From assembly GCF_015832195.1 (NCBI RefSeq), contig NC_052032.1, positions 7,136,618-7,200,617 on the forward strand: a stretch of 64,000 bases of DNA, in the 5' to 3' direction. The stretch comes from Motacilla alba alba (Eukaryota; Chordata; Aves; Passeriformes; Motacillidae). Position numbers and translations under genes: made by a program. This document shows positions 5,021 through 47,490 of the stretch, one piece after another (position 1 is the stretch's first letter; every line of letters begins with the position of its first letter). The notes beneath the pieces are model-generated. The model was not told the origin of the DNA. It made no database searches and worked only from the letters and a program-made list of their open reading frames with translations.

Positions 5021-5120
5021 CCAGAACTTGGGAAGCCCATGAGAAACTGCTACTCCCTGCCAGGCCCTGATTTTACCTATGGGATGTACATGCACAAGAG
5101 AGATGGAGGAGTCCCTGAAG
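5021..5120 (+). CDS. CFAP77: CFAP77 internal exon (ELGKP...RDGGVPE)
   Basis: The exon starts after the acceptor TTTTCTGCAG and ends at the donor GAAG|GTAGGA. Read from its first base it encodes 33 residues running from PELGKPMRNCYSLPG to RDGGVPE, then one base of a split codon. This matches the human CFAP77 segment with AELGKP, a DFTYG motif and RDGGVAE. The block is part of the conserved core of a microtubule inner protein of ciliary doublets. Phase 1 at the 3' end fits the next exon, which begins with two bases (G|CC, Ala). This is the most upstream CFAP77 exon I can identify in the window. Confidence 0.85.
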
Positions 5121-5636
5121 GTAGGACACTGCCCCTAAAACACAGACCTGCAACAAAATCCTAATGCTAGCAGGAAGTCTCCTCTCCTTCCCACAGCTCT
5201 TCAATACTTCTCATCAAGCTGGAAGTGCAGAACTCCAACATTTACCCACTTTCATTAATATCACCCCAATTGCTTGGTGACCAGTGAAGGTTCTCTGTCA
5301 CACTGGAAACTTTCAGAGGCTCACACAGAGCCCAGGCAGGGAGGGTGCACCTGCAAAAGGTGATGCACCTGGGCACTGTCATAACTTTGTCAGGGCTCCT
5401 GCTTTGTGCTCTCAGGGGCAATTTCCCTGTAAAAATCAGACATCCTGAGCAATCCAGGGCAGAAGGTGAGAAGACATCCAATTCAGATGGGGCATGGGAT
5501 GCAGTGGGACAGGGTATGAAGCTCACAAAAGGAACCTTAGCCCCACAAGACCCCCATGCACAGTGCACACACATCAGTCAGCTTTCCCAAAAGGAGCTAA
5601 CCAAGATGCCTCCTCTTTATTTCCTTCCACCTCCAG

Positions 5637-5713
5637 CCACAGGCCACTGGGACGCAGTGAAGGCCAAGGCTCACCCCTGTAAAATGGTCATGCCTCAGGA
5701 TTTTGTGACCATG
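5637..5713 (+). pseudogene. Duplicated partial CFAP77 exon, copy 1
   Basis: This is a 77-nt copy of the start of the 5988-6210 exon, with its own acceptor (CCTCCAG) but no donor. It carries replacements relative to the real exon, including RKRV to CKMV and PRDF to PQDF. It lies 351 nt upstream of the true acceptor, so it is in frame with the true exon. Read-through nevertheless meets a TAA inside copy 2, near 5861. Use of this acceptor would truncate the protein. Confidence 0.85.
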
Positions 5714-5817
5714 AACCTCAGCCCCACAAGACCCCCATTAACACACATCAATCAGCTTTCCCAAACAGAAGCTAACCAAGATGCCTCCTCTTTGTCTGTA
5801 TTTCCTTCCACCTGCAG

Positions 5818-5894
5818 CCACAGGCCACTGGGATGCAATGAAGGCCAAGGCCCACCCCCGTAAGAGGGTCATGCCCCGGGATTTTGTGGCCATG
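5818..5894 (+). pseudogene. Duplicated partial CFAP77 exon, copy 2
   Basis: This is the second 77-nt exon-start copy, nearly identical to the real exon and preceded by a good CCTGCAG acceptor, but without a donor. It lies 170 nt upstream of the true acceptor. Splicing here and reading through would shift the frame and meet a TAG at 5991-5993, just inside the real exon. It is a potential decoy acceptor. Confidence 0.85.
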
Positions 5895-5987
5895 AAGCTT
5901 AGCCCCACAAGACCCCCATGCATGGTCTGCTTTCCCAAACGGAAGCTAACTGAGATGCCTCCTCTTTGTATTTCCTTCCACCTGCAG

Positions 5988-6210
5988 CCATAGGCCACTG
6001 GGACGCAGTGAAGGCCAAGGCCCACCCCCGTAAGAGGGTCATGCCCCGGGATTTCGTGGCCATGGGCCGCGCAGCCGTGGACGAGGGCTGCACCACAGCC
6101 CGGGAGTTTGCTCTGTACTACAACTACATGGACATCCGCTGCAAGGACAAGGGCATCCTCAGATATGGGGGCAAGGCACCCCCAGGCATGACCTTTGGCA
6201 GGCCACCACG
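5988..6210 (+). CDS. CFAP77: CFAP77 internal exon (GHWDAVKAK...MTFGRPP)
   Basis: A 223-nt exon lies between the acceptor CCACCTGCAG and the donor CACG|GTAAGG. It encodes about 74 residues: AIGHWDAVKAKAH, a PRDFVAMGRAAVDEG segment, YYNYMDIRCKDKG, and finally PPGMTFGRPP. Human CFAP77 has the corresponding SHWK, RDFVALNREAV, HDIRRK and PPDMTFG blocks in the same order. Entry phase (CC completes Ala) and exit phase (CG, completed by G to Arg) agree with both neighbours. The first 77 nt and the acceptor are the third unit of the tandem triplication. The two upstream copies compete for the same branch-point region, so correct splicing must select the last of three similar acceptors. Confidence 0.9.
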
Positions 6211-18812: not shown

Positions 18813-18915
18813 GCCTTCCACTCCCATTTTTGACATCATGCAACACAGATACAAGGAGCTGTGGATGGAGGAGCAGAGAGCCCGGACTAGAGTCCAGCAC
18901 ATGGTGAAGAAAAAG
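18813..18915 (+). CDS. CFAP77: CFAP77 internal exon (RPSTPIFDIM...)
   Basis: A 103-nt exon lies between the acceptor ATGTTTTCCAG and the donor AAAAG|GTGGGA. It completes the Arg codon begun in the previous exon and then encodes PSTPIFDIMQHRYKELWMEE, followed by QRARTRVQHMVKKK. Human CFAP77 has RPSTPIFDLMEHRY at the same point. The segment is charged and likely helical, ending in a lysine run. It ends in phase 0, matching the next exon, which begins with an intact ATC codon. Confidence 0.9.
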
Positions 18916-19978
18916 GTGGGAAAAGTCCAGCAATCCTTTCCTGTGATGTGAACAGCACTACTGGGCACAGCCCCCACTGTCCTACCCCACAAGGGACAAA
19001 TGGGCTGCTCCCAGCCCTGGGAAGGGCTCTCAGCTGGGAAAACACCCCCCTGACTACTACAAGGCTGATGAAGCCTAACAAAGATGAGCATCCCCCTGCC
19101 AGGCTGTCCTTTGGACATCAGCTCTGCTCAGGTCACCTGTGACAGTGGCCACAACAAAGGAACAAGCAGCAAATGCTGAAAGGACAGTCCCAGCCCTGAG
19201 CCTGCCATGGTGAGGTTGATGCAGCACCCTCAGCAGCTGTTGGAGTGTAAGGCTGTGCTGTTAAACAAACCAACATTGTAATATCATTTAAAAGCAGCCA
19301 ATGACTGTTTTATTAGTTAATGGCTCAAAGAAGAGTCGGGCTAATATGGTAATGACCAATTTCAATGGGCTTACTGCCATCACAAACTGTGCTTTATAGT
19401 TGAAGTGCAGGAATACAGTGTCCTTAATTAGCAGCTATTTTATGAATACACCAGCCCGGGACATTGGAAAGTGCATCCCTACTTTATCTATTAATGACTG
19501 ATGTTTTTAATCACTAAGTTTCCTCCATCAAGCTCCCAAAGCCTGCAGCCACCAATTACTGAGTTAAGCAACACAAACCTGTCTCCTAGACCACAGAGCA
19601 CACAGATTCCCAGGGTATCCAGGTACCTGCACTGGCTTGTGCTGGGATTATTCAGCACTGTGGCCTGCAATTAATCAGGAGAGCCAGGAAACCCCACCAT
19701 GGCAGGGGTGCTGGAGGGGACTTGCCCAGTTAGGGATGAGCCAGTGCTGTAGCTCAGGGCACAGGGCTTCCAGTGGGCAGCAGTCACCTCCCTGAGATGC
19801 TCTACAAAGAGAAACTGAGAGCTGACAGCTGCTCACGTGTTGTAACTATCAGTATTGGCTGCATGGACATCGAAAACTCCCCAGATCATGGAACTGTGAT
19901 CATCACCCCAAAGCAACTTCTGGCCTCATCCATCCCAGTGTCACTGCATTGTGTCACACAGAGCTGATGAGCATGGCT
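18916..19978. other. CFAP77 intron segment before the minisatellite
   Basis: This is intron sequence with no coding exon. It contains an AT-rich unique block at 19255-19520, listed separately. The intron then runs into the acceptor-bearing minisatellite at 19979. Confidence 0.6.
19255..19520. promoter_or_regulatory. Candidate conserved non-coding element
   Basis: A unique AT-rich block contains TTATTAGTTAATGG near 19310, TTAATTA at 19424-19430 (in CCTTAATTAGCAGC) and TTTTTAATCACTAAG near 19505. It has a homeodomain-site cluster and no repeats. The enhancer role is inferred. Confidence 0.35.
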
Positions 19979-20462
19979 GTGCAGCAGTTTGAGCCCACTC
20001 TTGCTCACTTTTGGTTGCAGAGAAGTGAAGTGCAGCAGTTTGAGCCCCTGTGTTTCTCTTAGGTTGCAGACAGGAGAAGTGCAGCAGTTTGAGCCCACTC
20101 TTGTTCACTTTAGGTTGCAGACAGGAGAAGTGCAGCAGTTTGAGGCACTGGTGTTTCTCTCTGGTTGCAGACAGGAGAAGTGCAGCACTTTGAGCCCACT
20201 CTTGTTCAGCTTTGGTTGCAGACAGAAGTGCAGCAGTTTGAGCCCACTCTTGTTCACTTTAGGTTGCAGACAGGAGAAGTGCAGCAGTTTGAGCCCGTGT
20301 TTCTCTCTGGTTGCAGGCAGGAGAAGTGCAGCAGTTTGAGCCCACTCTTGTTCAGCTTTGGTTGCAGACAGGAGAAGTGCAGCAGTTTGAGCCCACTCTT
20401 GTTCACTTTAGGTTGCAGACAGAAGTGCAGCAGTTTGAGCCCGTGTTTCTCTCTGGTTGCAG
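19979..20462 (+). repeat. Minisatellite whose units carry the exon's 3' splice site
   Basis: About ten direct repeats of 44-51 bp run up to the CFAP77 exon at 20463. Each unit has GTGCAGCAGTTTGAGCCC, then a pyrimidine-rich part (ACTCTTGTTCACTTTAG or GTGTTTCTCTCT), then GGTTGCAG. Positions following each GGTTGCAG-type AG are 20021, 20070, 20121, 20171, 20222, 20270, 20317, 20368, 20419 and finally 20463, the real exon. Units of the two pyrimidine types are interspersed. After each decoy AG the frame reads TGEVQQFEP-like, and the true exon begins IGEVRENR. The repeat therefore probably arose from the acceptor plus exon start. Confidence 0.95.
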
Positions 20463-20558
20463 ATCGGCGAGGTGCGCGAGAACCGCACCACGTTCCTGCG
20501 CACGCACCCGCTGCCCGTGAAGGAGGAGTCCTTCTGGCACCCCCGGCGCTTCGAGAAG
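20463..20558 (+). CDS. CFAP77: CFAP77 internal exon (IGEVRENRTTFLR...)
   Basis: A 96-nt, phase 0-0 exon encodes 32 residues, beginning IGEVRENRTTFLRTHPLPV and ending WHPRRFEK. The acceptor is CTCTCTGGTTGCAG and the donor GAGAAG|GTACAG. The segment corresponds to the carboxy-terminal part of CFAP77 (TTFLR, PPVK and PRF blocks in the family). The exon is GC-rich, unlike the repeat immediately upstream. Its acceptor is the last unit of a minisatellite of about ten similar acceptors. The nearest decoy, 44 nt upstream, would shift the frame if used. Confidence 0.85.
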
Positions 20559-21589
20559 GTACAGGCTCCCCACGTCCCATCCCCTGACCAAAGACAACTT
20601 TTCTGGGCCTCTACAAGCATCTGGTTGAAATCAGGGACACGCTCTAACCTTGCTCACGTGCCCCAATAACATCCTTAGCGCACAATGAATGAGAGTCTTA
20701 ACTCAGAGCTCCCCGTGACCCAGACCTTAAAATAGTCCCAAATATGCTCAACCATCAGCCCCTTTTGAACATCAGGGTGGGATCTTTTTTCCCAGCCATA
20801 AGCCCTGGAAGAGAGGCAGCAGTTGGCCAAATAACATATTTTTTAACTTTTGTGCACTTTCACAAGCTTCCTGAGATGAGAAGCATCTTTTTATATCTCG
20901 CTGTTAGTACAGGGTGGCCTTTGCTCTACAAGTGCCCTACACAAGCAGGACAGTCACACCTGCATTTTAGGGCCCTGCCATTTCATCAGCTCTCACCATA
21001 AGTAATTCAAACCCCACCAGATGTTTCAAGAAGCTTTTTCCACCCCAGGATTAGAGCATTTCCAGAAAGCTTGCACTCTTGATACCTCTCTAAACTACCT
21101 GATTGACAATATTCACCCTGAGACAAAGCAAAGGGTCTGGCCAGGTTAGAGATGTCCTTGACACTTCCTTTAATTGATCCAAATAAGAGCCAAGGTGAAG
21201 ATTTCTTTTTCTAGTGATGGGATCTAAACATCTTCCTGAATTCATCTGTGCAACCTGCTGTGCTCTGGGGTACTTGTTAGAATTCCATTAGCTTTGTTTG
21301 TGGTGTAAATTACATGGAAACTTCCAGTGAAGAGCTGGGGGGGGGCGGTTTAGGAGAGAAGGAGAAAGAGCTGGACCAGTGGAATGGCAAGGAGACACCA
21401 GGAAGTGAAAGCACTGAAGCCCTGCTGGTAATTTACATGGCCAAAATCATATTTGGCATTGATAGATACCACTGCAAAAAGCTCTCAGCTCTCTGTCCTG
21501 GCCCTTCTTCTGCTGGGGTTATTTTTTTTTGCCATGCTGTTGATTTCTAACCACACTTTAAACAGCAAAGAAGCCCTGTGATTTCCTGA

Positions 21590-21800: not shown

Positions 21801-23632
21801 CGAGATCCTGGGGCAAGCCTCCTCTTTAGAGCTCCTCTCACCCCAGACCTTTCCATCACTGTTCATTTTTCAGCCTGGGTTTTGCTTTGTGCTTTCCCTT
21901 TTGTTTCATCCCTGGCTGTGGTTGGGTTCCTGCCCCAGCCGCAGTTCTCAAAACCTTCAAATCTTTCCTTCTTCTCTTTCACCTTTTTCTTCTTCTCCCT
22001 TTCCCTCCCTTCTCAGAAGCAGCATCCAGGGTGGAGGGACAGCTCATTTTGCACAGCCTCTGCAGATTTTCCACACTCCTCCTTTCTCGTTGCATTACCC
22101 TGGAAGGTTTGCCTTTCCCCAGTTACAGATCTAACAGGCACAGCCCACATCAGAACTTGGATCGAGGAATTTGTTACTCACTTGACCTTCAGTGCATGGT
22201 TTCCTCCACGGAAAGATAACTCCACTTGAACATCCATAAATGTTTACCTGGTTAAAAGCAGTAACAACCTGGAGGAAGTTAAGGGTTCCCAAAGATATTT
22301 GGTGGTCTCCAAACTGTTCTTTAAGTACTCCTCTAAAGGAGGGTTCTACAGAGATGATGGAATGGTTTTGAATTCCAGACTGACCTAATCCAGGGACTCC
22401 AGGAGTCAATGTCAGTCCTTCCTTTACTGAGGTGACAAATGACCAAAACACTGCCTCTAATCCATGTAAAAACCTCATCCTACTGTGCAAGAAGACTGTG
22501 AAAAGCAACCACAAAAATATCACCTCACAGAAAGCCTGTTAGCAGACTCCATCTGCATATTCCTGCCAGCCTCTGGTGGCTTTGTCCTGCTCTGACCAGT
22601 ACAGAAGATGCTCATGACTTGGGAAATACACAGACCCTGGGCAAGAATATGCAGAGACTCCATTGCCTGGCCGCAGCCTCGCTTGAAACCGTATTTCCAC
22701 ATGATCCAAGGCAGGTGTGAGGTGCAGGAGCGTGATATTCTCAAGCCACTCATCCTTCTGGTCACTCAGTCACCTCATCATCTGGAGTAACACCTTTCAG
22801 TCTGGCCTGCTCTGGGTCTGAGGGGAGCAACACCCACCCACTGAAATAGTTACAATCCAAAACAGGGGCAGCAGAAAGGTGAGATTTTGTTCCTTTAGGC
22901 CCGTAAAAATAATCAAAAAGTATTTTTTTATTCCCACCGTGACCCCTTACAGACAGCTGCAGAAACTGAGCATGGATATCTCTGCTGGCTCTTAAACTGG
23001 GCTTTCCATTCAGTCCCTGGCACCATGAAAGCTTGCCCAAGAAGTAGAAGAGAAGAAAACAAAGGAGCTTTTCCCTCCCCACTAATTGCATCTGCTTGCT
23101 CCCTGCATTGCCAGAGCTGCATGACATTACATAGTCATTCAGTCAGTAAAATATGGACAAATTGACTATATTTTCATTTGGATTTAGGTTTCAGCTCCAC
23201 TGCCCACACTGTTAAGCTAACTGGGTGATTTGCAGGCTCTCCCACACCGGGTGCTCCTGCTCAACCTGTGGTCTCCTGGGCCCCCCAGCTCACCAAGGCA
23301 AGCAGGTCACAGGGAGCCAGTCCTGTCCTGATGGGCAGTTCATTAGGGAAAGTTGCTGCATTAAAATGGTTTTTTTTATTTATTTTTTTTAAACTATACC
23401 AAGCAGATGTTAACTCCTTACTCACCTCAGCACAATGCTTCTACTGCCCTCCTCTTCCTCAGCCACCCCCAAAGCAAACAGCCTCTGCCTTGCTTTGCCT
23501 GCAGTGACACAATTCCAGGGCTCAAGCTTTGCCAGCATGGCTGGGACTGTGCCCCAAAATTTAATTTATTTGTAGATGTGGGACTACATTCCCTGGGGGT
23601 TATACTCTCAGGCACCCGGCATGGATATAAGT

Positions 23633-30185: not shown

Positions 30186-30254
30186 GTTGAGCCTCATCTC
30201 AGGACTTTTCCAGACCCTGAATCCCGTCAAAAGGCTCTCAGTGCCTCCCACTGA
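30186..30254 (+). CDS. CFAP77: CFAP77 terminal coding exon
   Basis: After the acceptor CTTTCCTCATAG the frame continues in phase 0 for 22 codons: VEPHLRTFPDPESRQKALSA, then SH and TGA at 30252-30254. The VxPxLxTF pattern followed by a basic RQKA segment fits the end of CFAP77 as I recall it from human. The phase agrees with the 20463-20558 exon, and a poly(A) signal follows at a normal distance. The exon is short, so identification rests on phase, position and this weak similarity. Confidence 0.75.
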   Translation, partial: VEPHLRTFPDPESRQKALSASH

Positions 30255-30420: not shown

Positions 30421-33400
30421 ATTCTGTCTCAGCCTGTTCATTGCCTTGTGTCAGATGCACAGCACAATCCTGACGATGCTCAGGAGCAGGGCAGTGCTCA
30501 CACCAGCACAGCCCCACAGGGAGGCAGGACAGGCTCCTTCCCTGCTGCCTCTGGACAAATAGATTGAATGCAGCCATATCCTAGCTGATATCAAATCTGT
30601 AATATCTCATCAGGCCTCATTTCTCTGCCAGAAAAGCTTCCCATCAGTGCCTGATTCAGCAAACCATTGCCTGTGTGAAGGAATTCAAACAGCTGCTTTG
30701 AGTGCTCTGCCAAACTGGGCCTCACCACAGGCGATGCCTCTGCTTTCAGGTGGCTCCAGCCAGCTCCACACCCACCCTCCAGCAGCTGCTGCTGCCTGGA
30801 GCCCCTCAGGGCTGAGCCTCTCCAAGCACTCACCCAACAAACTCAAACTCTACCAACGCCAGCTCAGCATCACAGCACCCACAGCCACAGGCTCAGTCAG
30901 GAGCCAGCACATTTGGAATCCATCTTCTCCCAACAGAGCATTTCACTTCAAATAACACTTGGTTAAAAGTGCCATTATTTAAACTGTGGCTCTCCATTAT
31001 TACTAAAGGAATAATTGATATCTCTTACGCAGTCTGCTTCTCACATCTACCATTACAGCTCAGAGTTTACCAGATTTTAAAGCCAAATTATCTCCCCATT
31101 TTCATATTCTCTCTCCTATTGGCACTTGGAGAGCTCAGGTGTGTTCACCCCAGAGCTCTGGGTGGTGACATCTGCTGTGCTGGGCAGCCCCAGCTGCATC
31201 CTGAGCTCAGGTGGATGTGCCAGCATGATTTTGCCCCCCACACCTTGGCACTGAGATGAGCCCGGTCCTACATAAAGCCACCAGCCAAAGGACCTGAAAA
31301 ACCCATGCTGAGCTCAGGGCTCATTGCCCCTCGGATTTCCAGCCAAACCTTTAACCCTAAACCTCAAGGAGAAGAGTTCTTCATAGCATTACACTGCATT
31401 GCTCAAGATGAAACGACAAAGTAAACTGCAAAAGCAACTTTTTTTTACCCTTTTTTTTACCCCTCAGGACAATGAAGGCTCCCCAGGAGCTGCTCCAGCA
31501 TTTCCCACATCCTCTCTTTAGGGCAGCTTGTACCTCAGCCTGCCCTTTCATAAGGAAGGAGCTGTAACAAACTCCCCCTGCCCAAACCTGAGCTGAGGGA
31601 GGAACAAAATCGCCTGCTCCACACCGGGAAAACCCTGGTACGTGGTTGCCTCTTTTTAGTACAGTCCTCTAAATAAAACCCATCTAAAATAATGAGGGGG
31701 ATAACAGCAGGGCTTGCCAAGCTGGCAGAGGTGGATTATAACCAAAGGCCTTTCCCACCTCCCCAGGGAGGGAGGGAGGAAGCTGGGCCTTAAATGACTT
31801 GTCTTGCTAAAAATGACACTGGTTATGAGAGTGTGAGAAACCCAGGCACGAGGTTTGTCCTTCTGCCTGCCGGGAGGCACATCCAGCTCTCAGCCCAGGC
31901 ACGGTGCCCTCCTGCAGCAGCCACTGGGCTCCCTGGGGTGTGCTCAGGGAAGGAGGCACCTCCAGAGGGTCCTGCCGGGCTGGGGAGGGCTGGCACAGCA
32001 CGGTGTGAACCAAACCCCTGCAGAGCTGCCGGTCGGGACAGGCAACCAGCAGAGAGACCAGAAACCCGAAAATCATCCGACAAATACACAAAGTGCGTTC
32101 GGGAGACACCTCTCAGTGCAGCTCAGAGCCGACAGATGTGCCCTCGAAATGCCGGGCAAGGCCGTGCCCCAGATGTCCCCGGTGTCACAGCTCGGATGGG
32201 CAGCGGGGTACCCCTGTCCCGGCTCCCCCCGGCCCGGCCGTGCCCCGTCCGAGCCGTGCGCCGCCGTGTCCCGGCCCCCGCTCCTTGTCCTGCAGTGACA
32301 CCCACCGGTAACGGGCTTCTACCGCCGCTGCAGCGGCCCCGAGCCGGGCCCGGCTCCTCCCCGGCTGCCGGGCCCCCCGTGCTGCCGCTCGCCCCCAGCC
32401 CGAGCCCTCTCCTCTCTCCCGAAGATGCTCTCGTTTGGTTCCCGGAGCGTCCCGGCGGAGCCCGAGCATCCCCCGCTGCTCCCCGGGCAGGAGGGGTTCC
32501 CCCCTCAGCCAGACCCTTCCGGGACACCGGGCTGTGCGGGAATCTCTGGATTAACCCGTGCTCAGTCACCGTCAGAGCTCAGCAGCCCCTGGCCCCGCTG
32601 TGAAGGGAACACCTGGGTCAGCCCTGCCCCTCGGCCCCAGGGCCAAACCTGCGCTGGTGCGGGAACCAGGAGAGCCCAGCCCTGTGCAGCAGCAGCAGCC
32701 GGCGGGGTGGGATGAACAGCAGCTCCCAAAGCTGCCACGGTCCGAAATCCACCCCTGGATTGCGACTGAGGCTTGTGAATGCAGTTGGCACCAGGGATCT
32801 CCTCTTGGCTGATTGTTTGTGAACAGGAACAGTCTGGAAATGGGGGTTTAAGGGCAGGCACGCACAGGCACTGCTCCCTGGTCTGTGCACAGGATTTCCT
32901 GTTTCTGCTGGGAGCCACAGAAAAATCCTTGGAACCCCACCTGTCCAGGGTCTGGTGATGTAGGAGGGACTCCACATATGGGCAGAAATGGGCACATTTC
33001 TGCCTCGGGGAGTCCAGCTCTGAAACAATTTAATGAAGCAATAGCATTAATAGTAATAATAGCAATAATAATCTTAGTGTCATTAGCACACAACTAGCAG
33101 TGCATCTGTAGCTGCTGGGAGCCCCAAGTGTGGCCTAGGAGTGACATATCTGTCCCCAGGGCTGGGAATGGCACTAAACAGAACCTGCTCTGGGAGGTCA
33201 AATCAAATACCCCCCAAAATCTTGCACATCATCAGGAAGTTGGTCTCATCCGGGGGCGTCCTTGTGGTTATTTGAAAGCAGGTGCTTTATTCAAGAGCAA
33301 GCCTCGCCAGCCCAGACCTGTCCCTGCATGGCTGATCCAAATCCTGATCCTAATCCCACTCCCAGCCCTCTGCCTTTTCCAGTCCCGTTCCTGGTCCCAA

Positions 33401-34690
33401 ATAAAACCTCGGCGCTGGTTCTATCCCAGTGCAAATTTCCAACCCAAATGCGGTCTCCTGGTTGAAGGGGGAGGCTTCCAGAGCCCAGGAACCAACACAA
33501 ACCCTGCGAGGAGCTGCCAAACCCAGTGCCATTCCTCACCAGGACCACTTCCTGCACACCCACTGCTCTGCTCCAGTCCAAAGGGACACTTGGCCCAGCC
33601 TCGGGGATGGTGGCCACTGCAAAAGTGACCTGGTGCCAGTCCTGGCTCTCTGCTGGGAGGGACGCAGCAGCAGGAACCTCTCAGCAGGGGCAGGGAGGAT
33701 GAGCAGCCCTCAGCACGAGGTGGGGGCAGGCTGGGACCGGGGCTGATGATGCTGATTTTGTTCCCGGGCTTTTCCTCCTCTAAAGTTCTTTTGTTCCTCT
33801 GCCCCGATCGCAGCCGGCCCCGAGCTGCAGGGCCGAGGGCAGGAGGTGCTGGGGGCCCTGCCTGCGCCGCTGCCCGACAGCTGGCAGCCGGGCTGCCCCA
33901 GGGGGCTCTCCCCTCCTTGGTCGCCTCCAAGCTGCCGGCCAAGGGCGGCTTTGGAAGAGGGACAAGATGCAGCTGACTGGCCGGGAAGGTGGGGAACAGA
34001 AGAAATCGAGTGTTTGAGAAATAACCAGCGACATCACTTTAAAGTGACGCAGCTTCAGGCGCCCGGGTGTGGACATTTTCCTATCTCCGCGGCGAAGGCT
34101 CTATCCGCTGGAAAAAACCCTAAATAAACCCTCGAGGAGACAGCAGCCAGTCCGACCGCCAGGAAGGTGGGAATCCTGCGTGAGCCTGTCCCTCTCCAGC
34201 CCGGGAGACCAACAACAGCAAACCCCGACGGGGCGGGAGGGAGGAAAGTTGGTGTCTCCGGCAGAGCCGGGCAGAACGGGGCAGCCCTGCCTGAAGCCGT
34301 GGGGGTTTTATTTAAAATGCGATTGACGGCAGGAAAAAAATCCGCTCTGAGCGCGGTCCGTGCCCAGTAGCACCAGCAGGTACCGCTCCGGCAGAGCGAT
34401 GCCCGCTCCTCGCCGCTCCGGCAGCGCTGGGCGAGGGACGCGGCTGCCCGGCGGCCCCCTGGACCCCTCTGCTCGGCCACAGCCCATTTCCAGGGCATGC
34501 AACGAAATTTGCACCTCCGAGGCTCATCTCGGGCTCAGAGCAGCCGCCTCAGTGCTGGGGGTACTGGGAGGTTTCGGTGCTTTTTCGTTCCTTTTTTTTT
34601 TTTTTTTTTCCCTTTTCTATTTTTTTCTGTTTTTTTTTTTTTCGTTTTAATTTTAACGCCCAGCAAAACTTTCCCTGCTCGGGAGGGACC
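30421..34690. other. CFAP77-BARHL1 intergenic region
   Basis: No coding gene is recognised. Base composition changes from ordinary bird intergenic DNA (30.4-31.8 kb) to a CpG-rich block at about 31.9-32.7 kb, back to neutral sequence with a short ATT/AAT-type stretch at 33,030-33,080, then CpG-rich again from about 33.75 kb. A T-run of about 58 bp lies at 34,587-34,645. Long frames in the GC-rich parts are explained by composition. Confidence 0.6.
31900..32710. promoter_or_regulatory. CpG island about 3.5 kb upstream of BARHL1
   Basis: The stretch is dense in CpG and GC, including CCCCCGGCCCGGCCGTGCCC around 32226 and GTGCGCCGCCGTGTCCCGG around 32255. It lies several kb before the BARHL1 coding start. 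It carries long open frames on both strands, as expected for GC-rich DNA, but no recognisable domain. It may be a distal promoter for BARHL1 or for an unannotated non-coding transcript. Confidence 0.5.
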
Positions 34691-34910
34691 GGCAGATCAG
34701 CTAATTGCGGGGGGAAGCGCGCAGAAAGCAGTAACCCCTCGATAACCCACCCAACTCACACCCCCCCTCCCTCCGCGGCTAATCATCCCATTAAGAGCCC
34801 CATCAGCGGGATAATGACAGCAAAAGAGGGCGGAAACCGCCCGGAAAGCGCGGGGATCCGGGCGACAATTAATTCCCGTTAATCAAGCTCCGAGGTGTCG
34901 CCTGTTGGGG
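34690..34910. promoter_or_regulatory. BARHL1 upstream homeodomain-site cluster
   Basis: About 0.9-1.1 kb before the start codon, a unique stretch contains CAGCTAATTGCGGG near 34699, CGGCTAATCATCCCATTAAG near 34777, GCGGGATAATGACAGC, and CAATTAATTCCCGTTAATCA near 34865. Paired TAAT/TTAATCA cores in a CpG-rich setting suggest a homeodomain-bound proximal enhancer. Autoregulation by BARHL1 is a possibility, not shown. Confidence 0.45.
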
Positions 34911-35588
34911 AGTGACATCCCCCAAAACGCCTGGCGGCCAATGGGCGCGATCACACGGGCTGGGTGGGGGGTGCCGGGGTCCCCCAGCCGGAGCGGCCCG
35001 AGTTCGGCTTTTTCTCCCCATTTCCCCCGTTCCCCCCCGGGGAGGGCGCGGCGCTCCCGCCGCTGTCCGAGGTGCTGAAGGCTCCGGAGCGGCTCCGGCG
35101 CTGTCCGAGGTGCTGCGAGCTCCGGAGTCACTCCGGTTCCCGCCCCCCCGGTGCTGTCCGAGGTGCTGGCGGGGAAGGGGGGCGCCGCGGCGGCCCGGCG
35201 ACTGGCCACCCCCTCCGCCCTCCCCTCGCCCTTCCCCATTGATTTCTGGATCATTAAGTGGTTAAGGCGCTGCGAAGCCTTCACTATCGATCGCTGCCTC
35301 CCCACCTCCGGCTGGGAGCCCCCGGGCTGCCCCCCAGCCCCGCGCCGCCGCCGCTCCGGGCACTCCGGGTGGGGTGGCCGGGACCCCGGGTGAGCTTGGG
35401 GTCCGTCCCCCCTCACCCCACCCCCTTCGCGGCCAAAGTTTGACTCTGCCTCCCTCTCCCCCCCCTCCTGTCTGTCTGTGAGTGCAGCTGGGCGCGATGC
35501 TGAAGACGGAGCAGCCCTGGATCTAACGCGCGGCGCCTCGGAGAGCCTTGCAGCAATTGTTGCCCGGATCCCAGACTGAACTTTGCTC

Positions 35589-35700
35589 TTCTTTTTTTTT
35601 TTTTCCTTTTTACCTTATTTTTTTTCCTTTCGTTTTTTCTTTTTTCTTTTTTTTTTTTTTTTTTTGTTTGTTTGTTTGTTTTTTGTTTTTCCCTCCTGTT
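35589..35700 (+). repeat. T-rich tract in BARHL1 5' region
   Basis: An interrupted T tract of about 110 nt with (TTTG) repeats lies 80-190 nt upstream of the BARHL1 start codon, within the probable 5' UTR or immediate promoter. It contrasts sharply with the surrounding GC-rich DNA. Confidence 0.85.
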
Positions 35701-35748
35701 ATTGTCAATTCTCGTTACCAACCCGCTTCCGCCGCGCCCTCCCCGCCA

Positions 35749-35760
35749 ATGCCCGTGTGA
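35749..35760 (+). promoter_or_regulatory. Minimal upstream ORF before BARHL1
   Basis: ATGCCCGTGTGA encodes Met-Pro-Val-stop and ends 22 nt before the BARHL1 start codon. Its context (GCCAATGC) lacks a purine at -3. The main start has G at -3 and G at +4. If the transcript includes it, leaky scanning would be expected. Confidence 0.5.
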
Positions 35761-35782
35761 GCGCCGGCACCTCGCGGGGGCC

Positions 35783-36233
35783 ATGGAGGGCTCCACCGGC
35801 TTTGGGATCGACTCCATCCTCTCCCACCGAGCCGGCAGCCCGGCCGTGCCCAAGGGGGACCCGCTGGTGGGGGACGGCCGGTCCCCGCTGGAGCTGAGCC
35901 CCCGCTCGGAGGGCAGCAGCGGGTGCCCCTCGCCCCGCTCCCCGGGCCGCGAGTGCCTGGAGGCGGCGGCGCCGCGGCCGGGCCTGGACGCGCATCTCCA
36001 GCCGGGGCAGGTCTCGGCTCCCTCGCAGTCCCGGACCGTCACCTCCTCCTTCCTCATCAGAGACATCCTGGCCGACTGCAAGCCCCTGGCCGCCTGCGCG
36101 CCTTACTCCAGCACCAATGGACCTCACGGCGGGCAGGAGCCGGCGGGCAGGATCCCCACCAAGCCCGGCGAGGATTTTAGGGAGAAAATGGAAAAAACCA
36201 CCAGCAGCTCCTCCTCGGACTCGGAGTACAAAG
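35783..36233 (+). CDS. BARHL1: BARHL1 exon 1 coding part (FIL motifs)
   Basis: The start ATG has strong context (GGGCCATGG), and no in-frame ATG lies closely upstream. The exon encodes residues 1-150 plus one base and ends at CAAAG|GTAAGA. Residues 7-13 (FGIDSIL) and 90-96 (FLIRDIL) are the two FIL/EH1-like motifs. In this family they recruit Groucho/TLE corepressors. Between them is a Pro/Ser/Gly-rich linker, and the end is a serine run before DSEYK. The beginning MEGSTGFGIDSILSHRAGSP and the SRTVTSSFLIRDILADCKPL segment match human BARHL1 almost exactly, and they separate it from BARHL2. Confidence 0.95.
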
Positions 36234-39593
<3,360 letters not shown>

Positions 39594-39894
39594 TAAAAAT
39601 GCGCCGCTCCCTCCTGCCCACAGCGCCGGGATCCCGCCCTGCTCCCCTCCCCGGCCGCGCACCCCGAACCAGGCAGGGCTTTGCACCCCACAACCGCCCC
39701 GTCCCTCCGGCACAGGGACAGCGGCGATGTCCGGCCCGTCCCCGCCTCTCCCGGGGACTTTTACCCCAAAGCCAGGGGGAAAAGGCGATGCCGAGGCAGG
39801 GCGGGCGTGGGGCGGCAGGGGGCAATCCGTGCCCCCGGCCCCGGCAAGGCGAGGAGGCAGGAGCGGGCTTCCAGCTAAACACAACAGCATAACA

Positions 39895-40035
39895 CATCGG
39901 CCCATTAATAATGGATACCAATTACTGCTTTGGGCATCAATAATTAACACCCTTTACAGTAATTACACAATTATTATTATGATGAATAATTTACTGGTGG
40001 AAATAGGTTTAGCGCTTCAGCGACAAATCTGTAAA
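39895..40035. promoter_or_regulatory. Candidate intronic enhancer of BARHL1
   Basis: A unique, non-repetitive AT-rich island in GC-rich intron 2 contains GCCCATTAATAATGGATACC, CAATTACTGC, ATCAATAATTAACACC, CAGTAATTACACAATTATTA and GAATAATTTACTGG. At least eight TAAT/ATTA cores lie within 140 bp. This density, with no simple-repeat structure, suggests a homeodomain-bound regulatory element. Known BARHL1 autoregulation makes self-binding plausible, by inference. Confidence 0.5.
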
Positions 40036-40401
40036 AGGGCTGGCGACGCGGTGGCTTCGGTGGGTTTGTCCCGACGTCGCCAGCCCCGGCCATTGCCACC
40101 GCCACCAAGCGAGGGATCCCCGGCCGCACCCCCGCCCTGTCCTCTCGCTCGTTCCAGGCTTTTACCCTCCCTCCCCATCGTTTCCAGTCCCATTTCTCCA
40201 TCTGCAAAGATTCCCCTACGCCGGGGATTTGGGGAAGTTTAGGGGTGGTTGGGGACGCTGTGATCACCCCTCCTCTCCCCAAATCCCTCCTGCAAGGACA
40301 CGCCGGAGCCGAAACTGCGCTCCCAGCCCTTCCCCGGGCAGCCCGGCCGGCCGGCGGCGAGATCCTGGGGCCGGGCTCCTCCACGAGATCCGGCACACAC
40401 A

Positions 40402-40403
40402 CA

Positions 40404-40438
<35 letters not shown>

Positions 40439-40720
40439 GTATACATTTATATTATATATATATATTTATATATATATTTATGTATACATATATATATATA
40501 CATGCCTATACCGATATATACGCATAGAAAAAACATACACTTACATACGTACATATACATATATATAGATGTATATATGTGTATTTAGACACAGATATAT
40601 CTATCTATATCTATGTCTATATATACAGATATACACACACACATATATATATACAAATATACACATTATATACATAGATATAGATATATGTATAGATATA
40701 TAGATATACAGATATGCCGC
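40402..40720. repeat. TA-rich microsatellite cluster
   Basis: About 320 bp are composed of TA, TATG, TACA and TAGA dinucleotide and tetranucleotide runs inside GC-rich BARHL1 intron 2, starting with a pure AT run after CATGAATA. The short frames across it, rich in Ile, Tyr and His, are artefacts of the repeat. Confidence 0.95.
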
Positions 40721-41315
40721 AAACGAATTCCCCGGGACCGTGCCCCTCGCCTGTCCCCCCGCGGGACTCCCGGAGCCTCCCGAGCGGCCGGGCCTGGTGC
40801 CGGCAGCCCCGGCCGGGGGAGAGGGTCCCGGAGCCGCCGCGGCTTCGGGCCGCAGCATCGCGGTGATCGCAGCATCCGCGCTCAGCTCACGGATCCCCCG
40901 TGCCCTCCTCGGGTCGTGTGACACCCTGGGATTTACACCCTGAGGAAGGGACTGAGTTTCTGTCGCGATTTGTGTCGCCGGGATTCACATCCCGCCGTTG
41001 GCTCCCAGCCGGGCTGTGCGTCCGGTGCCTCCGGGAGAGCTCCGTGGGCGCCCACACCGGGCTGCGGCGGGACAGCCAGGGAGATGAGCTCCCTCCCCCC
41101 ACTGGCAGGGTCTGCATCCCATCCCGTTAAATCCCATCCCATCCCATCCCTGCCCTGCGGGAGAGGCCGGCCCTGGGAGCCAGCGGCGGGAGCGGGGATG
41201 CGCAGCGAGAGCAGAGCCCGGGGAAAGGGGGTGTGCAAAGGGTAAAAAGAGCCCGGGAGCGGCTTTGGGAGCCTCCCTCCCCTCCTTGACCCCTTCTCTC
41301 GACTTGCCCCCCCAG

Positions 41316-41610
41316 GACCAAGTGGAAAAGGCAGACGGCGGTGGGCCTGGAGCTGCTGGCTGAGGCTGGCAACTACTCAGCCCTCCAGAGGATGTTCCCC
41401 TCGCCCTACTTCTACCCGCAGAGTTTGGTCTCCAACCTGGACCCCGGCGCCGCCCTCTACCTGTACCGCGGACCCAGCGCGCCGCCCCCCGCCCTACAGA
41501 GACCCTTGGTGCCCCGCATCCTCATCCACGGACTGCAGGGCGGCAGCGAGCCCCCGCCGCCCCTGCCCCCGCTGCCCGGCGTCCTGCCCCGGGCAGCGCA
41601 GCCCCGGTGA
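41316..41610 (+). CDS. BARHL1: BARHL1 exon 3 (homeodomain end and C-terminus)
   Basis: The last coding exon completes Arg 225 and continues TKWKRQTAVG, finishing the homeodomain at residue 232. It then encodes the family-specific tail: LELLAEAGNYSALQRMFPSP, YFYPQSLVSNLDPGAALYLY, and a proline-rich stretch ending PGVLPRAAQPR, with TGA at 41608-41610. Total protein length is 322. The tail matches human BARHL1 nearly residue for residue. Only small differences (such as LQGGSEP for LQGASEP) are visible, confirming BARHL1 rather than BARHL2. Confidence 0.95.
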
Positions 41611-41721
41611 GCCCCGGCCGTCCGGGCAGCCCCTGCGGCACCCACCGGGCCGAGGGGGCTGGAGGGGGCCACCCCACACCTCTGGGGCCGCGAGCAAGAG
41701 ACAGACTGCCGCTCATCCCCA

Positions 41722-41722
41722 A

Positions 41723-41747
<25 letters not shown>
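41722..41747. repeat. AT dinucleotide run in BARHL1 3' UTR
   Basis: A pure alternating AT run of about 26 bp lies in the 3' UTR about 110 nt after the stop codon. It is a second AT repeat within the gene, separate from the intron 2 array. Confidence 0.9.
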
Positions 41748-41755
<8 letters not shown>

Positions 41756-42397
41756 AATGAGACCACCCCCTCCTTTTTTAAAATAATATATAAAGAATGC
41801 AAGGATCAAGGACAGGCTTGGCAGGACGGAGCCGGCGGAGCTGCCCCTCGCCACCTTTACCCCCGTGTGCCCCCGAGGGGCAGCGGGGCCGCTGCGTGTC
41901 CCCCACCCCGGCCTGGGACGGCGCCAGGAGCACGGGCGGGGGTCGGATGCTCCGGGGGGGCTTCGCCTCTCCGCCCCCTCCCCAGGAACAGGCAGGGGAG
42001 CCGAGCCACACCTGCCACGGGCGGCTCCGGGGAGACCCCTCCCCGCTTTCTCCGCTCCCCCGGCCTGGGGCAGCGCTGCCGCCGCCGGGAAGGAGCGCGG
42101 GGTGGCCCGGGCCGATGGCCCCAGCGAGACTTTGGGACGTCGCTAACTTAAACTTAAACAAAACAAAACAAAAAAAAAATTAAAAAAAAAAAAGAAAAAA
42201 GGAAAGAAAAAAAAAAGCGGTGGAATGTAAATACGGTGCAAAATGTATATGAATTATTTATTTGTGAACCCTGAGGGCGTATTTGTGTAAGTGATTCTTG
42301 TCAGTCTGTATCCCGGGGCCGGCCCGGCCGGGCGGGGGGCGCGGGGGGGGCTCGGGGAGCCGCGGCCGCTCCCGCTCCCCCCTTTTTTAAATGTGGA

Positions 42398-42403
42398 AAT
42401 AAA
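42398..42403 (+). terminator. BARHL1: BARHL1 polyadenylation signal
   Basis: AATAAA in TGTGGAAATAAAACTTC lies 788 nt after the stop and is followed by sequence outside the GC-rich UTR pattern. The Pumilio and AU-rich motifs just upstream support this as the main 3' end. Confidence 0.75.
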
Positions 42404-42674
42404 ACTTCTTTACAAACAAACGGCTCTCGCCTCCGCCGGCCCCTTCTTCCCCTCCCGCTTGTTTGCCCTGGCGGAACGGCCGCCGCCGAGGGGAAGGGAA
42501 AAGCAGAGGGGAGTTTTCCCACCTCCCATCGCACGGGACCCCCGCTCCCTCCCCCGGGGCTCGGTGCTCCCCCGGGGCTCGGTGTCCCCTCGGTGTCCGG
42601 TGTCCCCCCGGGGCCCGGCTCCAGTGCCGGCATGCGGGAGCGGCGGGGGAACCGGGGCAGCCCGGCGCGGTGAT

Positions 42675-42870
42675 AGCCGCGACTCCGGTGAATTAATAAC
42701 GCTAATCTTAAGTGTATAATTGCCTAAGTGCTTTAAATGATCGCTTTGGAAAATGGATTGTTTCCACCCTTTAAAAGTGTCGCTCGTCTGGCCGCGGCCG
42801 GCGGGCCCGGCAGCTGGTGCCCGGGACAGCCGGGCAGCGGCTCGCCGGCTCGGGGAGCCGACAGATGGGC
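42675..42870. promoter_or_regulatory. Candidate BARHL1 3' enhancer with E-box
   Basis: The block contains GGTGAATTAATAACGCTAAT, CTTAAGTGTATAATTGCC and CTTTAAATGATCGCTTTGG, then a CAGATG E-box at 42862-42867 (in CGACAGATGGGC). Mouse Barhl1 is reported to have a 3' enhancer using an Atoh1-type E-box and a homeodomain site. This block lies about 0.3 kb past the poly(A) signal and has both site types. Homology to the mouse enhancer is not established. Confidence 0.4.
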
Positions 42871-43269
42871 TGCGGCTCCCCCCGGCCCCGGCCGCTCCCC
42901 CGGCTGTCTGCGGAGCCCCCCCGGCACCCAGCCGCCCTCCAGATCCCCCTCCCCGGCTCCCCGGGCCGGGTCCCAGCCCGGTGCCCCCGGGCCGGCTCCG
43001 TCCCGGGAGCTTTGGCCCGGCAGCCCCGAGCCCCGCGATTGTCGGCTCGGCCAAATGCACAGCCACGCCTGGGGACAGAGCCCCCGGCCTTTGTGGACGG
43101 GGCCGGCTCTTTGCATGTGAATGGCGGAGTTTGGTAAATCCCCGGGCCTCGGCTGGGCGAGGAGGAGGAGGAGAAGGAGGAAGGGGGGTCGCTCCCAGCT
43201 CGGGGTTAATGAAGTGGGAAAGGAGTCTTTCAGAGAGGCCTGCAAACAACCCCCTCCCCGGGCAACAAC

Positions 43270-43620
43270 CCCCGTCCCAAATCCTACATGGATTGACTTA
43301 AACCCAGGGGATAAGTGCTTTAAATTAATCTCATTGAATAAGAATGAGGCCAAACAAAACTCTTTAAAATCATATTAAAAATCTATCAAAGGACAACTTG
43401 CAGTGGGTGTGCTTTTCATTTTGTGAGCGCAAAGGCAAGGAGCATACAGCAACCTTCCTCCCATTTACACAGCAGGAATGTGAATCAAAGACATTCTCTA
43501 ATATTTAATTGTCCTTGTAGCCGTAGCGGATTCCTCCTCTTACATTAATGAAGTACAAGGCTTCGTTACACGTTTGTAATTGTGATATTTAAATTTACCG
43601 TTTCACATCTGGAAGGAGCT
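43270..43620. promoter_or_regulatory. Candidate conserved element downstream of BARHL1
   Basis: A unique AT-rich block has GCTTTAAATTAATCTCATTG, two TCF-like ATCAAAG sites (near 43384 and 43486), ATATTTAATTGTCC, CTTACATTAATGAAGTAC and TTTGTAATTGTGATATTT. It lies between a CpG-rich flank and ordinary intergenic DNA. There is no coding signal. The regulatory role is inferred. Confidence 0.45.
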
Positions 43621-45999
43621 GGAAACTCCCCTGTGCCAGCGGGTCTGAGCCAGCACCATAACACAGAGCCAGGGTCCGGTTTGTGCTGTGAGGATGGTGG
43701 GAGAGAGCAGGACAGAGTCCCGAGGAATCCTCTGCCCTGGGAAGGGGAATGGCTGTGCCGGGCATGGTGGGAAGGAAAGAGAGCAGAGGGGACAGGAGGG
43801 CTGGAGCCGCTGCTGCCAGGGAGATCTCACAGCAGAGTCAAGCTTCAAGATGAAACAGTTTAGGGAAGACACCACAAGCTCTAAGCAGAGAGCACATATG
43901 AACAGCATCACGTGTGGGAGGATGTCAGCAGCCTCAAAACCTGCTGGAGGACCAACCTCACCTCCAGCCTGCGTGCAGGGACTGAGATGGGAGCTGGTGT
44001 CCCACAGCAGAGCCCACCAGCACTGGCCCTGCACCTACAGCAGCCCCTGAGCAGGCTGGAAATGTTTCCAGAGGATGGTGCCAGGTGGGCACAATCCTGG
44101 CAAAGCCCCGGGGTAGGACAGGCTGTGCTGGCTTGAAATGATATGAAGCAAAAAAATGGAACAGTAGAGAAGCACCACTCCCAGCAGGGAAACCTTTGGG
44201 TATTGCAGCAGGGATTTCTCCAGGGTGCAGAGCCCAGCACACAAGCTGCTGCTGCGGGTCAGGTTCTGTCAGCTCCAGGCTCTGGATCCAAAGAGTGCAG
44301 TGGGTTTGCCAGAGCCAAACACAGTCCTGGCTCTCAGGTCCCTTCCAGGCTTTTACCCAGCTCAAGGGCCACCTTCCTCCCCTCCTGGCACAGCTTTAAG
44401 CAGGACCAGCACCCCAGAACAGCCACAGCAAGAGCTGCTCTGCTGGACAAGCCAGCACACAAAGTCACTGCAATCAGCAGAATTGTTTCTAGCCAAGATA
44501 CTCCATGGCTTCATCCCAGCACCAAACCAAACGATGTCAGAATGGAAAGCCCAGAGCACTGTGGCTTTTCCTGGCCTCTCCCAGGTTCATGGAGAAAACA
44601 AGGTGTTGTACACAGAGAGGTTCTGCTGCTCTCTACCCTGCCTAGTTATGGTGTTCTCAGCAGCCAGGGACCAGGGCTGTGTCCCGTGTCTGACCCAGCC
44701 CCTGGTGTACAGCTGTGACCCTTGCCCCAGGGTGACCTCCTTGCTTTTCCCTAATCCACAGCCTTGCAGTGTGAGCCCAAGATGCTCCAGCTGCAGAGGA
44801 GAGGAGGATGTGAGCTCTACCACGGAGCCAGAAGAGAGCTGAGAACACACAAGAGCATCTCCTGCAGTCTCATGGTGTGAGAGCAGGGAAGGCAAGCCCA
44901 GCTAAGCCCTGCTCTGACTCACAGGCAGCTTTGTAGAAAAGTTACACAGTGCCACTGTTTCCAGACCAAACCCAGGGACTTCGGGCTGCAGGGCAGTGAG
45001 GCCCCTGCCCTCCACCACTACCCAGAGAAGCAAACAGGACCAAAGCCAAAACCAAAGCTGCAGTTCCACCAACACTGCCAAACCCAGCTCCCCTCCCCTG
45101 CCAGCTGTGCAGGCAGCTCCCACCCAGCCAAGCCCCTTCAGCACACACCACCTACCTCGGAGCAAGAGGGGACAATCCAGGAGAAGTTCAGGGCAACATC
45201 CACCTGCTCCATGCCACAGGAATCCACCCCCAGCTGCTCCTCTGGCATTTGGGTGCTCAGAGGATTTGGGAACCTCTGCACACACAACAGCCTGGTCCTG
45301 CTGCGGGTGGTGGAGATTTGCAGGTGGTGGAAATGATGGAACTCTAGAGCAGATCACAGCTCCAAGCACCACACCCTGCCCTGCCTGAACGAAAGGGTGA
45401 TTTGAGTCAAATCAACCCCAAACCTACCAGGTTCTTCTTGAATTGAGTGGTGCACAAGGGTGAGGCCAGCTCAGAGCCAATCTAGAGCTGCCCAAGTGTA
45501 AATAAAGGCACAATTTGATTCCTGCCCACCCAGCCACAATTCAAACACCTTTTTCTCATCAGCCTTCAAGTTTATTAGGAGAAAACTCAGGAGCGTGTGC
45601 ACTTAACTTCAGGTGCAGGTGCATTTTTTTTAACACTTTCTTATTCAACAACTCCTCCTCCCTCTCTCCCTAATCACTCAAGCAATCCAGCCCTATCTGC
45701 TAAAGATGGTGAAGATGAAAGAAAAATGCCCTCTGATATTTTTTAAAGATCAATTTATTCATCATAACCATTTGTACCGTTTCATGCCCAGTTAATACAG
45801 GCAGCAATGAGATCTCCTGATGTGTCTCACCTATGTGCTGTTGGCCTTTTTTCCTACTCTTATGAATTTGCCAATAGTCCCTATTAATTCCAACGTGACA
45901 GTCAGCCAGGAGAAGGTCATGTACTTTCCCTTCATGCACAAGATCATTCCCAAACTTGCACTCTCTGCATCATTCTGAGTCATTTTCATCCTCAGGGGT

Positions 46000-46420
46000 T
46001 TCTTTTCTGTTTAAGTTGACATTTGCCTTAAACCTGATTGCTCTTCCAAATAGTTCTCATAACAAAAATCAGGTGGGCTTTGTTATTTTATTTTAATCTA
46101 ATAAATGTTCGTAACTTCATTCTCTCTGAAAAATCGTGGTTAATTTGATACTGGAGCCTTCCTATCATCTTTCAGAAGCGTTGAAAAAAGTATTGCAGTG
46201 AAATCAAAGTGTCTGATAATTGCCCGGGAGGAAATAAAAATTCTGGTTTCACAAGTTACCTTCACTTCAGAAATTGAATACTTTGGGGCTGCTCTCCTAC
46301 AATCCTTTGTATGACTCACTACAGCCCAAAGTAGGTGCCCTCAATTCTGCATTTACAAGGCATCATTTTCATCTGTTTATACTCCTTTTTCAGTACTTTT
46401 CTTCCTTCTGACGTCTGAAA
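46000..46420. promoter_or_regulatory. Candidate conserved non-coding element
   Basis: An AT-rich unique block includes TTGTTATTTTATTTTAATC, GGTTAATTTGATACTGG, GTGAAATCAAAGTGTC and TCTGATAATTGCCCGGG. It is about 3.6-4.0 kb beyond the BARHL1 3' end. No repeats or exons are seen. Inferred from composition and motifs only. Confidence 0.3.
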
Positions 46421-47490
46421 TTGCCGCTATTTGAGCACTTTCTGCTCCTGCATTAAACATGCCCGGCTCAGGTCATGGTGGGCTGCTCCTCCTCATCCCT
46501 TTCCTCGAGGAAGACACGTGCAGGGAGCAGAAAGTTCTGTTTTGGCTGGGTTTGTGCTGCTCTCACCTGCGCCCTGCTTGGTGCTTGTGCTCCAGGAGGG
46601 GCTGGAAGAAGCAGAGGAAGGGACAGGTGGGGGCTCACCTGTAGGAGCTGGGGAGTTGGGGGATCTCCTGCAGGCTTTGGGGACACTTTCCCACTCACGG
46701 GGCAGTCTGGGATTCATTTCACACACTGTGGTGAACGAGTGCCAGCCTCAGCACACCGGGGCCATCCTGCATCCCTTTTCCCAGTGTCCCAGTTCTCTGA
46801 TGGGATGGCAAATGGGAAAAGCAAGAAGTGAAATCCATGAGCTCAAACGGGCCCAGGCAAGGCAGAGAACCCCAAAAGGCTGGGTCATGACTGGCAAGGG
46901 TTGGCAAGAACCCGCAAAGGCTTTAATGTTCAGAGAGGTGAGACATCTCAGACTCCCTCTGTGTTACATAATCAGGAATGACAGCACACTGCAGGCAAGG
47001 AGAAGTTTGGAGACTGCTGGATTCCACTCCGGCTCCTTCCCACAGTGACAATGTTTGTTCCCAGGAGCTCTGACAGCGAGTTCTGTGCCCATGAGCTCTG
47101 CCCCAAAGGGACCGTGTGTCACTGCACTGAAGAGCTCTCCACAATCCTGCCACTGGCATCCCTGCAGGTGGCAATTGTGACTAACAGTGACCAGGGACAG
47201 ACCTTGCCCAGTGCACAGAGGACAGCAGAGGGGGTGGCAGCAATGTGGCTCCATTACCTGAGACAGGAGCAGAAGTGCTCCCTTTACAGTGACAGGGCAC
47301 AGGGCAGATTCCCCTCTCCGTGGTGCTCCCAGGACACCTCCCCTGCCATGTTTACCTGGCTGGAAACAGCAAGTGAAGGGATTGTGGAGAGTTCCTTAGA
47401 CAGAAAAGCACCTCCTGCCTGCCCAAACTTGTCTCACTTTTATGTTGCACACACATCATGTTTCTCTGAAAATCATATTTAACCTTTTTT

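Follow-up and report, generated by a model that had tools for sequence, protein, structure and literature searches.

The CFAP77 Locus

The window (the whole 64-kb stretch of Motacilla alba alba DNA that was analyzed) carries CFAP77, a gene of the cilia, on its plus strand. The stitched exons match the Pfam family PF14825 (E-value = 2.8e-35), and solved CFAP77 chains align to the gene model with a best E-value of 3.4e-27 over 138 residues. The splice model consists of five exons and gives a single open frame of 196 residues plus a stop, uninterrupted across the exons located, that agrees by 90% with the protein of Zonotrichia and by 91% with that of Ammospiza. The exon PELGKPMRN..GGVPE is located at 5,021–5,120 (splice model and tblastn of Ammospiza P0002). 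Exon 2 (AIGHWD..FGRPPR) lies at 5,988–6,210, exon b (RPSTPIFD..VKKK) at 18,813–18,915 and the last exon (VEPHLRTF..SASH and the stop) at 30,186–30,254, all three placed by tblastn and the splice model. Exon c (IGEVRENRTT..RFEK) covers 96 nt at 20,463–20,558 and contains a GTGC at exon +10 (20,472–20,475). The KKK/xGEV exon edge is common to the proteins of Zonotrichia (P0001) and Ammospiza (P0002) and to the window. The first exon of CFAP77 was not found within the 64-kb window. In Passer domesticus isoform X3 (P0003) a segment of about 30 residues stands between exons b and c; its homolog in the window is at 22,011–22,109, downstream of exon c, and the order therefore differs.

Anatomy of the Array at Exon c

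Directly upstream of exon c, TRF reports a repeat at 19,979–20,442 with a period of 51, 9.4 copies and a score of 648, and a second row at 19,979–20,463 with a period of 149 (a trimer), 3.3 copies and a score of 724. This array, hereafter array 2, confirms the minisatellite that a sequence-only reading of this DNA had placed before the CFAP77 acceptor. As described there, the unit ends in GGTTGCAG (10/10 units, with ends at 20,020, 20,069, 20,120, 20,170, 20,221, 20,269, 20,316, 20,367, 20,418, and 20,462) and the array runs into the true acceptor, the tenth GGTTGCAG (20,462) being the live acceptor of exon c. Nine spare acceptors thus precede the real one, and the distances of these decoys to the exon (442, 393, 342, 292, 241, 193, 146, 95, and 44 nt) are exactly those given earlier. 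They are indeed mostly not multiples of three: only two of the nine (393 and 342) are divisible, and the decoys at these two in-frame distances both reach a stop inside the array. Two statements had to be narrowed. Ten or so units of 44–51 bp had been counted, which holds for nine of them, the first being a partial unit of 42 nt; and TGEV, thought to follow every decoy, does so in 5/9, the remainder reading TEV (2/9), AGEV (1/9), or RSEV (1/9).

Specifically, on the plus strand, the partial unit 0 (19,979–20,020, type A'), whose left edge is at a GTGC, is followed by unit 1 (20,021–20,069, type C'), unit 2 (20,070–20,120, type A), unit 3 (20,121–20,170, type C''), unit 4 (20,171–20,221, type B), unit 5 (20,222–20,269, type A with a 3-nt deletion), unit 6 (20,270–20,316, type C), unit 7 (20,317–20,367, type B), unit 8 (20,368–20,418, type A), and unit 9 (20,419–20,462, type C), which is the true acceptor of exon c. 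In the 1.07-Gb Motacilla assembly, a single location was reported for the array DNA, a result that does not by itself prove rarity.

Read from the 5' end, the types follow one another as A' C' A C'' B A C B A C. The two alternating types that the sequence-only reading took as a hint of a higher-order unit are three in fact, but the higher-order unit itself exists in the form of the trimer. Full units three positions apart (lag 3) have a mean identity of 0.90, compared with 0.80, 0.81, and 0.86 for lags 1, 2, and 6, respectively, and units 2 and 8 are identical across all 51 nt; in the single allele examined, the trimer and this identity point to homogenization. The true acceptor takes part in it. 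Unit 9 is identical to the decoy unit 6 (20,316) over 42 intronic nt, including a 4-nt deletion that both have in common, and has another 3-nt deletion in common with unit 5, so that the live splice site belongs fully to the array and, as a pattern, has exchanged sequence with its decoys. Concerning sequence constancy, none of the 8 columns of GGTTGCAG is variable, compared with 16 of 43 elsewhere in the unit. The GTGCAGCAGTTTGAGCC columns are nearly as constant (2/17 variable), and for this reason no selection on the AG is claimed.

A Second Array at Exon 2

CFAP77 bears another boundary-spanning array, array 1 (5,538–6,064), which lies outside the region of the sequence-only reading and consists of three tandem copies of the exon 2 acceptor, each with 88–99 nt of the intron end, the acceptor, and 77 nt of exon 2. 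On the plus strand, copy 1 (5,538–5,713) has CCTCCAG with the AG ending at 5,636 and matches the exon in 68/77 positions, copy 2 (5,720–5,894) has CCTGCAG with the AG ending at 5,817 and matches in 73/77, and the native copy (5,900–6,064) has the true acceptor, with the AG ending at 5,987, and the first 77 nt of exon 2. Over the whole unit, gaps included, copy 1 is 83% and copy 2 is 87% identical to the native copy. Five of the 13 differences in the exon part (9 + 4) are at CpG sites of the real exon 2. The ORF P0097 reads as a single-copy relative, leading from the unique flank on the left side (MQWDRV) to exon 2 by way of one copy; P0095 agrees with a single-copy state less clearly, as it includes only a few residues of the unique flank. 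As a separate observation, exon 2 (6,025–6,038) and copy 2 (5,855–5,868) both hold CCCCCGTAAGAGGG, an inner donor-like site, and the acceptor of copy 2 together with this site could make a pseudo-exon of 42 nt.

When the three long-unit arrays of the window were placed at random 200,000 times, at least two of them overlapped CFAP77 acceptors (five considered) in 0.19% of the trials, a figure to be taken as a hint only, given the small numbers and the frequency of arrays on the contig. Minisatellites are dense here: twenty control stretches of 10 kb (200 kb) gave 15 loci with a unit of at least 25 bp. Acceptor-like sites on some strand were present in six of the 15, under a cut-off of 70% pyrimidine that was set after the array had been seen and with control rows merged by hand. 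Finding an acceptor-like motif within a unit is consequently unremarkable alone; what matters is the exon boundary and the single-copy relatives.

Origin of Array 2

The 51-bp unit of array 2 is composed of 42 nt of the intron end and 9 nt of the exon start, and GTGC occurs at both breakpoints, the left edge of the array (19,979) and exon c +10. The state before duplication can be compared with P0105, an unspliced ORF from a 936-bp bird-like contig in a cluster of four member sequences. P0105 reads from the left intron flank of the window (..HPSVTALHRADVHGCAVLEPTPVSLWLQ) directly into VGEVRENRTTFLR of exon c. In tblastn against the window it gives two main pieces (19,814–20,038 and 20,445–20,666) with 12 residues in common, an overlap characteristic of a tandem duplication. 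Measured from the shared point, exon c is 243 nt away in P0105 and 690 nt away in the window; subtraction of the nine extra units leaves 248 nt, and the array therefore accounts for nearly the whole length difference. The intron part is also alike (LEPTPVSLWLQ in P0105, VSLWLQ before the true exon, FEPTLAHFWLQ in unit 0). P0105 is thus the apparent single-copy state of array 2; repeats can collapse in short-read assembly, yet the length fits and the cluster has four members. A further search for unspliced exon c ORFs (76 aa) returned no candidate, which is a weak negative since P0105 is itself such an ORF.

The exon-derived 9 nt read TGE after five of the nine decoys. Among bird proteins, exon c starts with xGEV in 21 of the 87 that could be parsed (18 of 105 sequences could not), where x is I, V, M, P, A, S, or T; the 20 named xGEV proteins are, we presume, all from oscines. 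The CFAP77 of Hirundo rustica (P0018) has TGEV at this start, matching the 5/9 decoys, and is annotated from two codons earlier, beginning with LQ. At the DNA level, unit and exon c agree in 9 of the first 13 nt, a level reached by 13 (unit query) and 8 (exon query) of 9,715 AG-anchored sites in the window. Sites as good number 45 and 22 of 9,716 over 12 nt, 32 and 10 of 9,715 over 18 nt, and 123 and 101 of 9,713 (about 1%) over 27 nt, respectively; weakening with a longer stretch is expected if homology stops at the GTGC. GEV at codons 2–4 was found at none of the 9,716 other AG-anchored sites in the window. This likeness, being post hoc and limited to 9–13 nt, may be regarded as moderate evidence, and more weight falls on the single-copy relative and on the second array. 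Together with the unit structure, these two support the earlier proposal that the acceptor of exon c and its first codons gave rise to the array.

Predicted Effects of Decoy Use

Translation was followed from exon b by way of each decoy in turn, across exon c and into the last exon. On paper, the normal C-terminus of CFAP77 results in 0/9 cases. Relative to the last exon junction, the stop lies 496 nt upstream for the decoy at 442 nt, 219 nt upstream for those at 393 and 342 nt, and 38 nt upstream for those at 146, 95, and 44 nt; the decoys at 292, 241, and 193 nt cause a frameshift, with a stop shortly after the start of the last exon. By the NMD rule of 50–55 nt before the junction, only the decoys at 442, 393, and 342 nt would be clear candidates. 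The nearest upstream AG lies 27, 26, and 23 nt from the decoys at 20,020, 20,170, and 20,316 and 23 nt from the true site; for the other six decoys an upstream AG ends 7 or 12 nt away. The array peptides QQFE, KCSSL, and ADRRS were looked for in the 105 bird-type proteins retrieved, each of them representing a cluster, and occurred in 0/105; a protein search with the array ORF (147 aa) gave 0/1,941 candidates at E ≤ 1.

Comparison with Known Repeats at Splice Junctions

Excerpts of two reports describe the amphioxus "mirage" minisatellites (BflGb6, BflGb9, Adh3, PGBD5, and troponin C) as tandem copies across an intron-exon boundary, with AG/GT signals in many, not all, of the repeats (PMC3087553, PMC3902484). 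In a 3' boundary case in these excerpts, the two haplotypes had six and three units and RT-PCR suggested normal splicing (PMC3087553, PMC3902484). In BflGb6, the 3' end of the intron and the 5' part of the exon are repeated in units of 150–160 bp (excerpt of PMC3087553), and array 1, with units of about 165–176 bp and 77 nt of exon, has almost the same design. Both CFAP77 arrays have boundary-spanning units, with a short exon part in array 2. In both, the native boundary is at the array edge, the acceptors at 5,987 and 20,462 being the last copies, and the splice signals are kept (10/10 GGTTGCAG in array 2, AG in 3/3 copies of array 1). They differ from the amphioxus cases in occurring in a bird gene and at two acceptors of one gene, and array 2 also in its exon part of only about 9 nt, its ten units, and its trimer higher-order repeat.

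In the human ABCA7 intron-18 VNTR, as far as the source excerpt goes, the unit is 25 bp, the first GT is the exon-18 donor, copy number ranges from about 12 to 427 units, and association with splicing and disease has been measured (PMC5954066). As in CFAP77, units repeat a splice site and the edge unit (the first one in ABCA7) is the live site; unlike ABCA7, CFAP77 repeats the acceptor and not the donor, a mirror image, and its array is for that reason not assigned to the ABCA7 type. FAM20C, known here from one sentence only, resembles CFAP77 in having a tandem repeat across a splice junction, namely a VNTR over the intron-exon junction that is said to affect splicing (PMC5941971, citing Simpson et al., 2007). 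For human segmental-duplication genes, internal tandem repeats are reported in which minisatellites have expanded where exon and intron meet, with possible activation of cryptic splice sites. Unlike in CFAP77, half of these repeats are in coding sequence, and the excerpt holds no acceptor array of this kind (PMC2812944). The CFAP77 arrays, in view of the mirages, ABCA7, and FAM20C, belong to a known class. The novelty implied by the sequence-only reading, which knew of no described splice-acceptor minisatellite in this gene, is accordingly weaker. No bird gene with an acceptor array was found in the open-access literature among the matches listed, and the part of the chicken MUC2 source that was available contains none. 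What is new here is a second boundary-spanning array in the same gene.

Proposed Explanation and Its Alternatives

We regard array 2, with a probability of roughly 0.8, as a boundary-spanning minisatellite of the mirage type that arose from the acceptor of exon c and whose decoys are mostly passengers. A 51-bp segment, delimited by the GTGC that lies 42 nt ahead of the splice site and the GTGC at exon +10, would have been tandemly duplicated, probably by way of the 4-bp GTGC microhomology; slippage or unequal exchange may then have raised the number of units to ten and subsequently produced the trimer whose pattern is observed. Every unit would thus owe its polypyrimidine tract and AG to descent, and not to separate selection. 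The exon-proximal acceptor is probably the one used because the 96-nt exon c and its downstream donor define it, and the decoys would be mostly silent passengers with occasional out-of-frame use at a low level. The array is most likely a tolerated passenger, although its neutrality is something we infer.

Alternatively, the decoys might compete with the true acceptor and give rise to frameshifted or decayed transcripts, the array length tuning the CFAP77 level. Such a role would fit the decoy at 20,316 with the 42 intronic nt of the true site, and the fact that every decoy route spoils the protein (0/9 normal), 3/9 being expected NMD targets. In the excerpt on ABCA7, the length of the donor-side VNTR goes with a splicing change and single-unit retention is mentioned (PMC5954066), and male Cfap77 knockout mice are less fertile according to the part of the source available (PMC13002332), from which dosage could matter. 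We nevertheless hold it to be unlikely, as the array peptides are absent from the 105 returned protein sequences, the array-ORF search gave none at E ≤ 1, and lancelet mirages, in the excerpts cited, apparently do not disturb splicing (PMC3087553, PMC3902484). It is even harder to maintain that some units of array 2 are spliced in as coding repeats: the 51-nt units do have one open frame (TGEVQQFEPTLVHFRLQ), but the mixed unit lengths shift the frame, all nine routes end in a stop or a frameshift, and such an insert occurs in 0/105 of the protein sequences returned, which leaves this idea with hardly any credence.

Two further alternatives concern the array as such, and we give each of them very little chance. 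An unrelated minisatellite could merely adjoin exon c, its GEV likeness being due to chance, as might be thought from the short exon likeness and from the 15 control loci in 200 kb, six with an acceptor-like site. However, the intron part of the unit resembles the ancestral intron end seen in P0105, GTGC stands at both breakpoints, and array 1 copies 77 nt of exon; an origin from unrelated sequence, by which the sequence-only reading would have been overturned, is on these grounds largely refuted. An assembly artefact could have inflated the copy number of array 2, tandem arrays being often misassembled and a single assembly having been examined. Such inflation is difficult to reconcile with substitutions and indels between units in an ordered trimer pattern, and with an array on an 11.27-Mb contig that occurs at one place in the assembly.

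Evolutionary Context and Neighboring Sequence

Under the mirage-type reading, boundary-spanning minisatellites, seen earlier in lancelets and at a few human loci, now extend to a bird, at two places in one gene, and apparently single-copy relatives let the first duplication be read. The locus is also a natural experiment on how acceptors are chosen: the 42-nt intronic acceptor at exon c recurs unchanged 146 nt upstream, so that any difference in use must stem from exon context or position. Tentatively, and at somewhat short of even odds, we suggest that a minisatellite has taken in a live 3' splice site, which evolves in concert with its own decoys; exchange would swap the acceptor, so that copy number and acceptor quality would drift together, and the occurrence of two such arrays in one songbird gene might mean that boundary-spanning duplication is recurrent in bird genes.

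Concerning the rest of the window, an Rfam scan gave 0 matches at the gathering score, and a Pfam scan of ten long ORFs of the 14 listed (31,794–47,045, the neighbors of CFAP77) gave a family in 0/10. At 35,057–35,136, a GC-rich 38-bp unit is present twice within a G+C-rich stretch.
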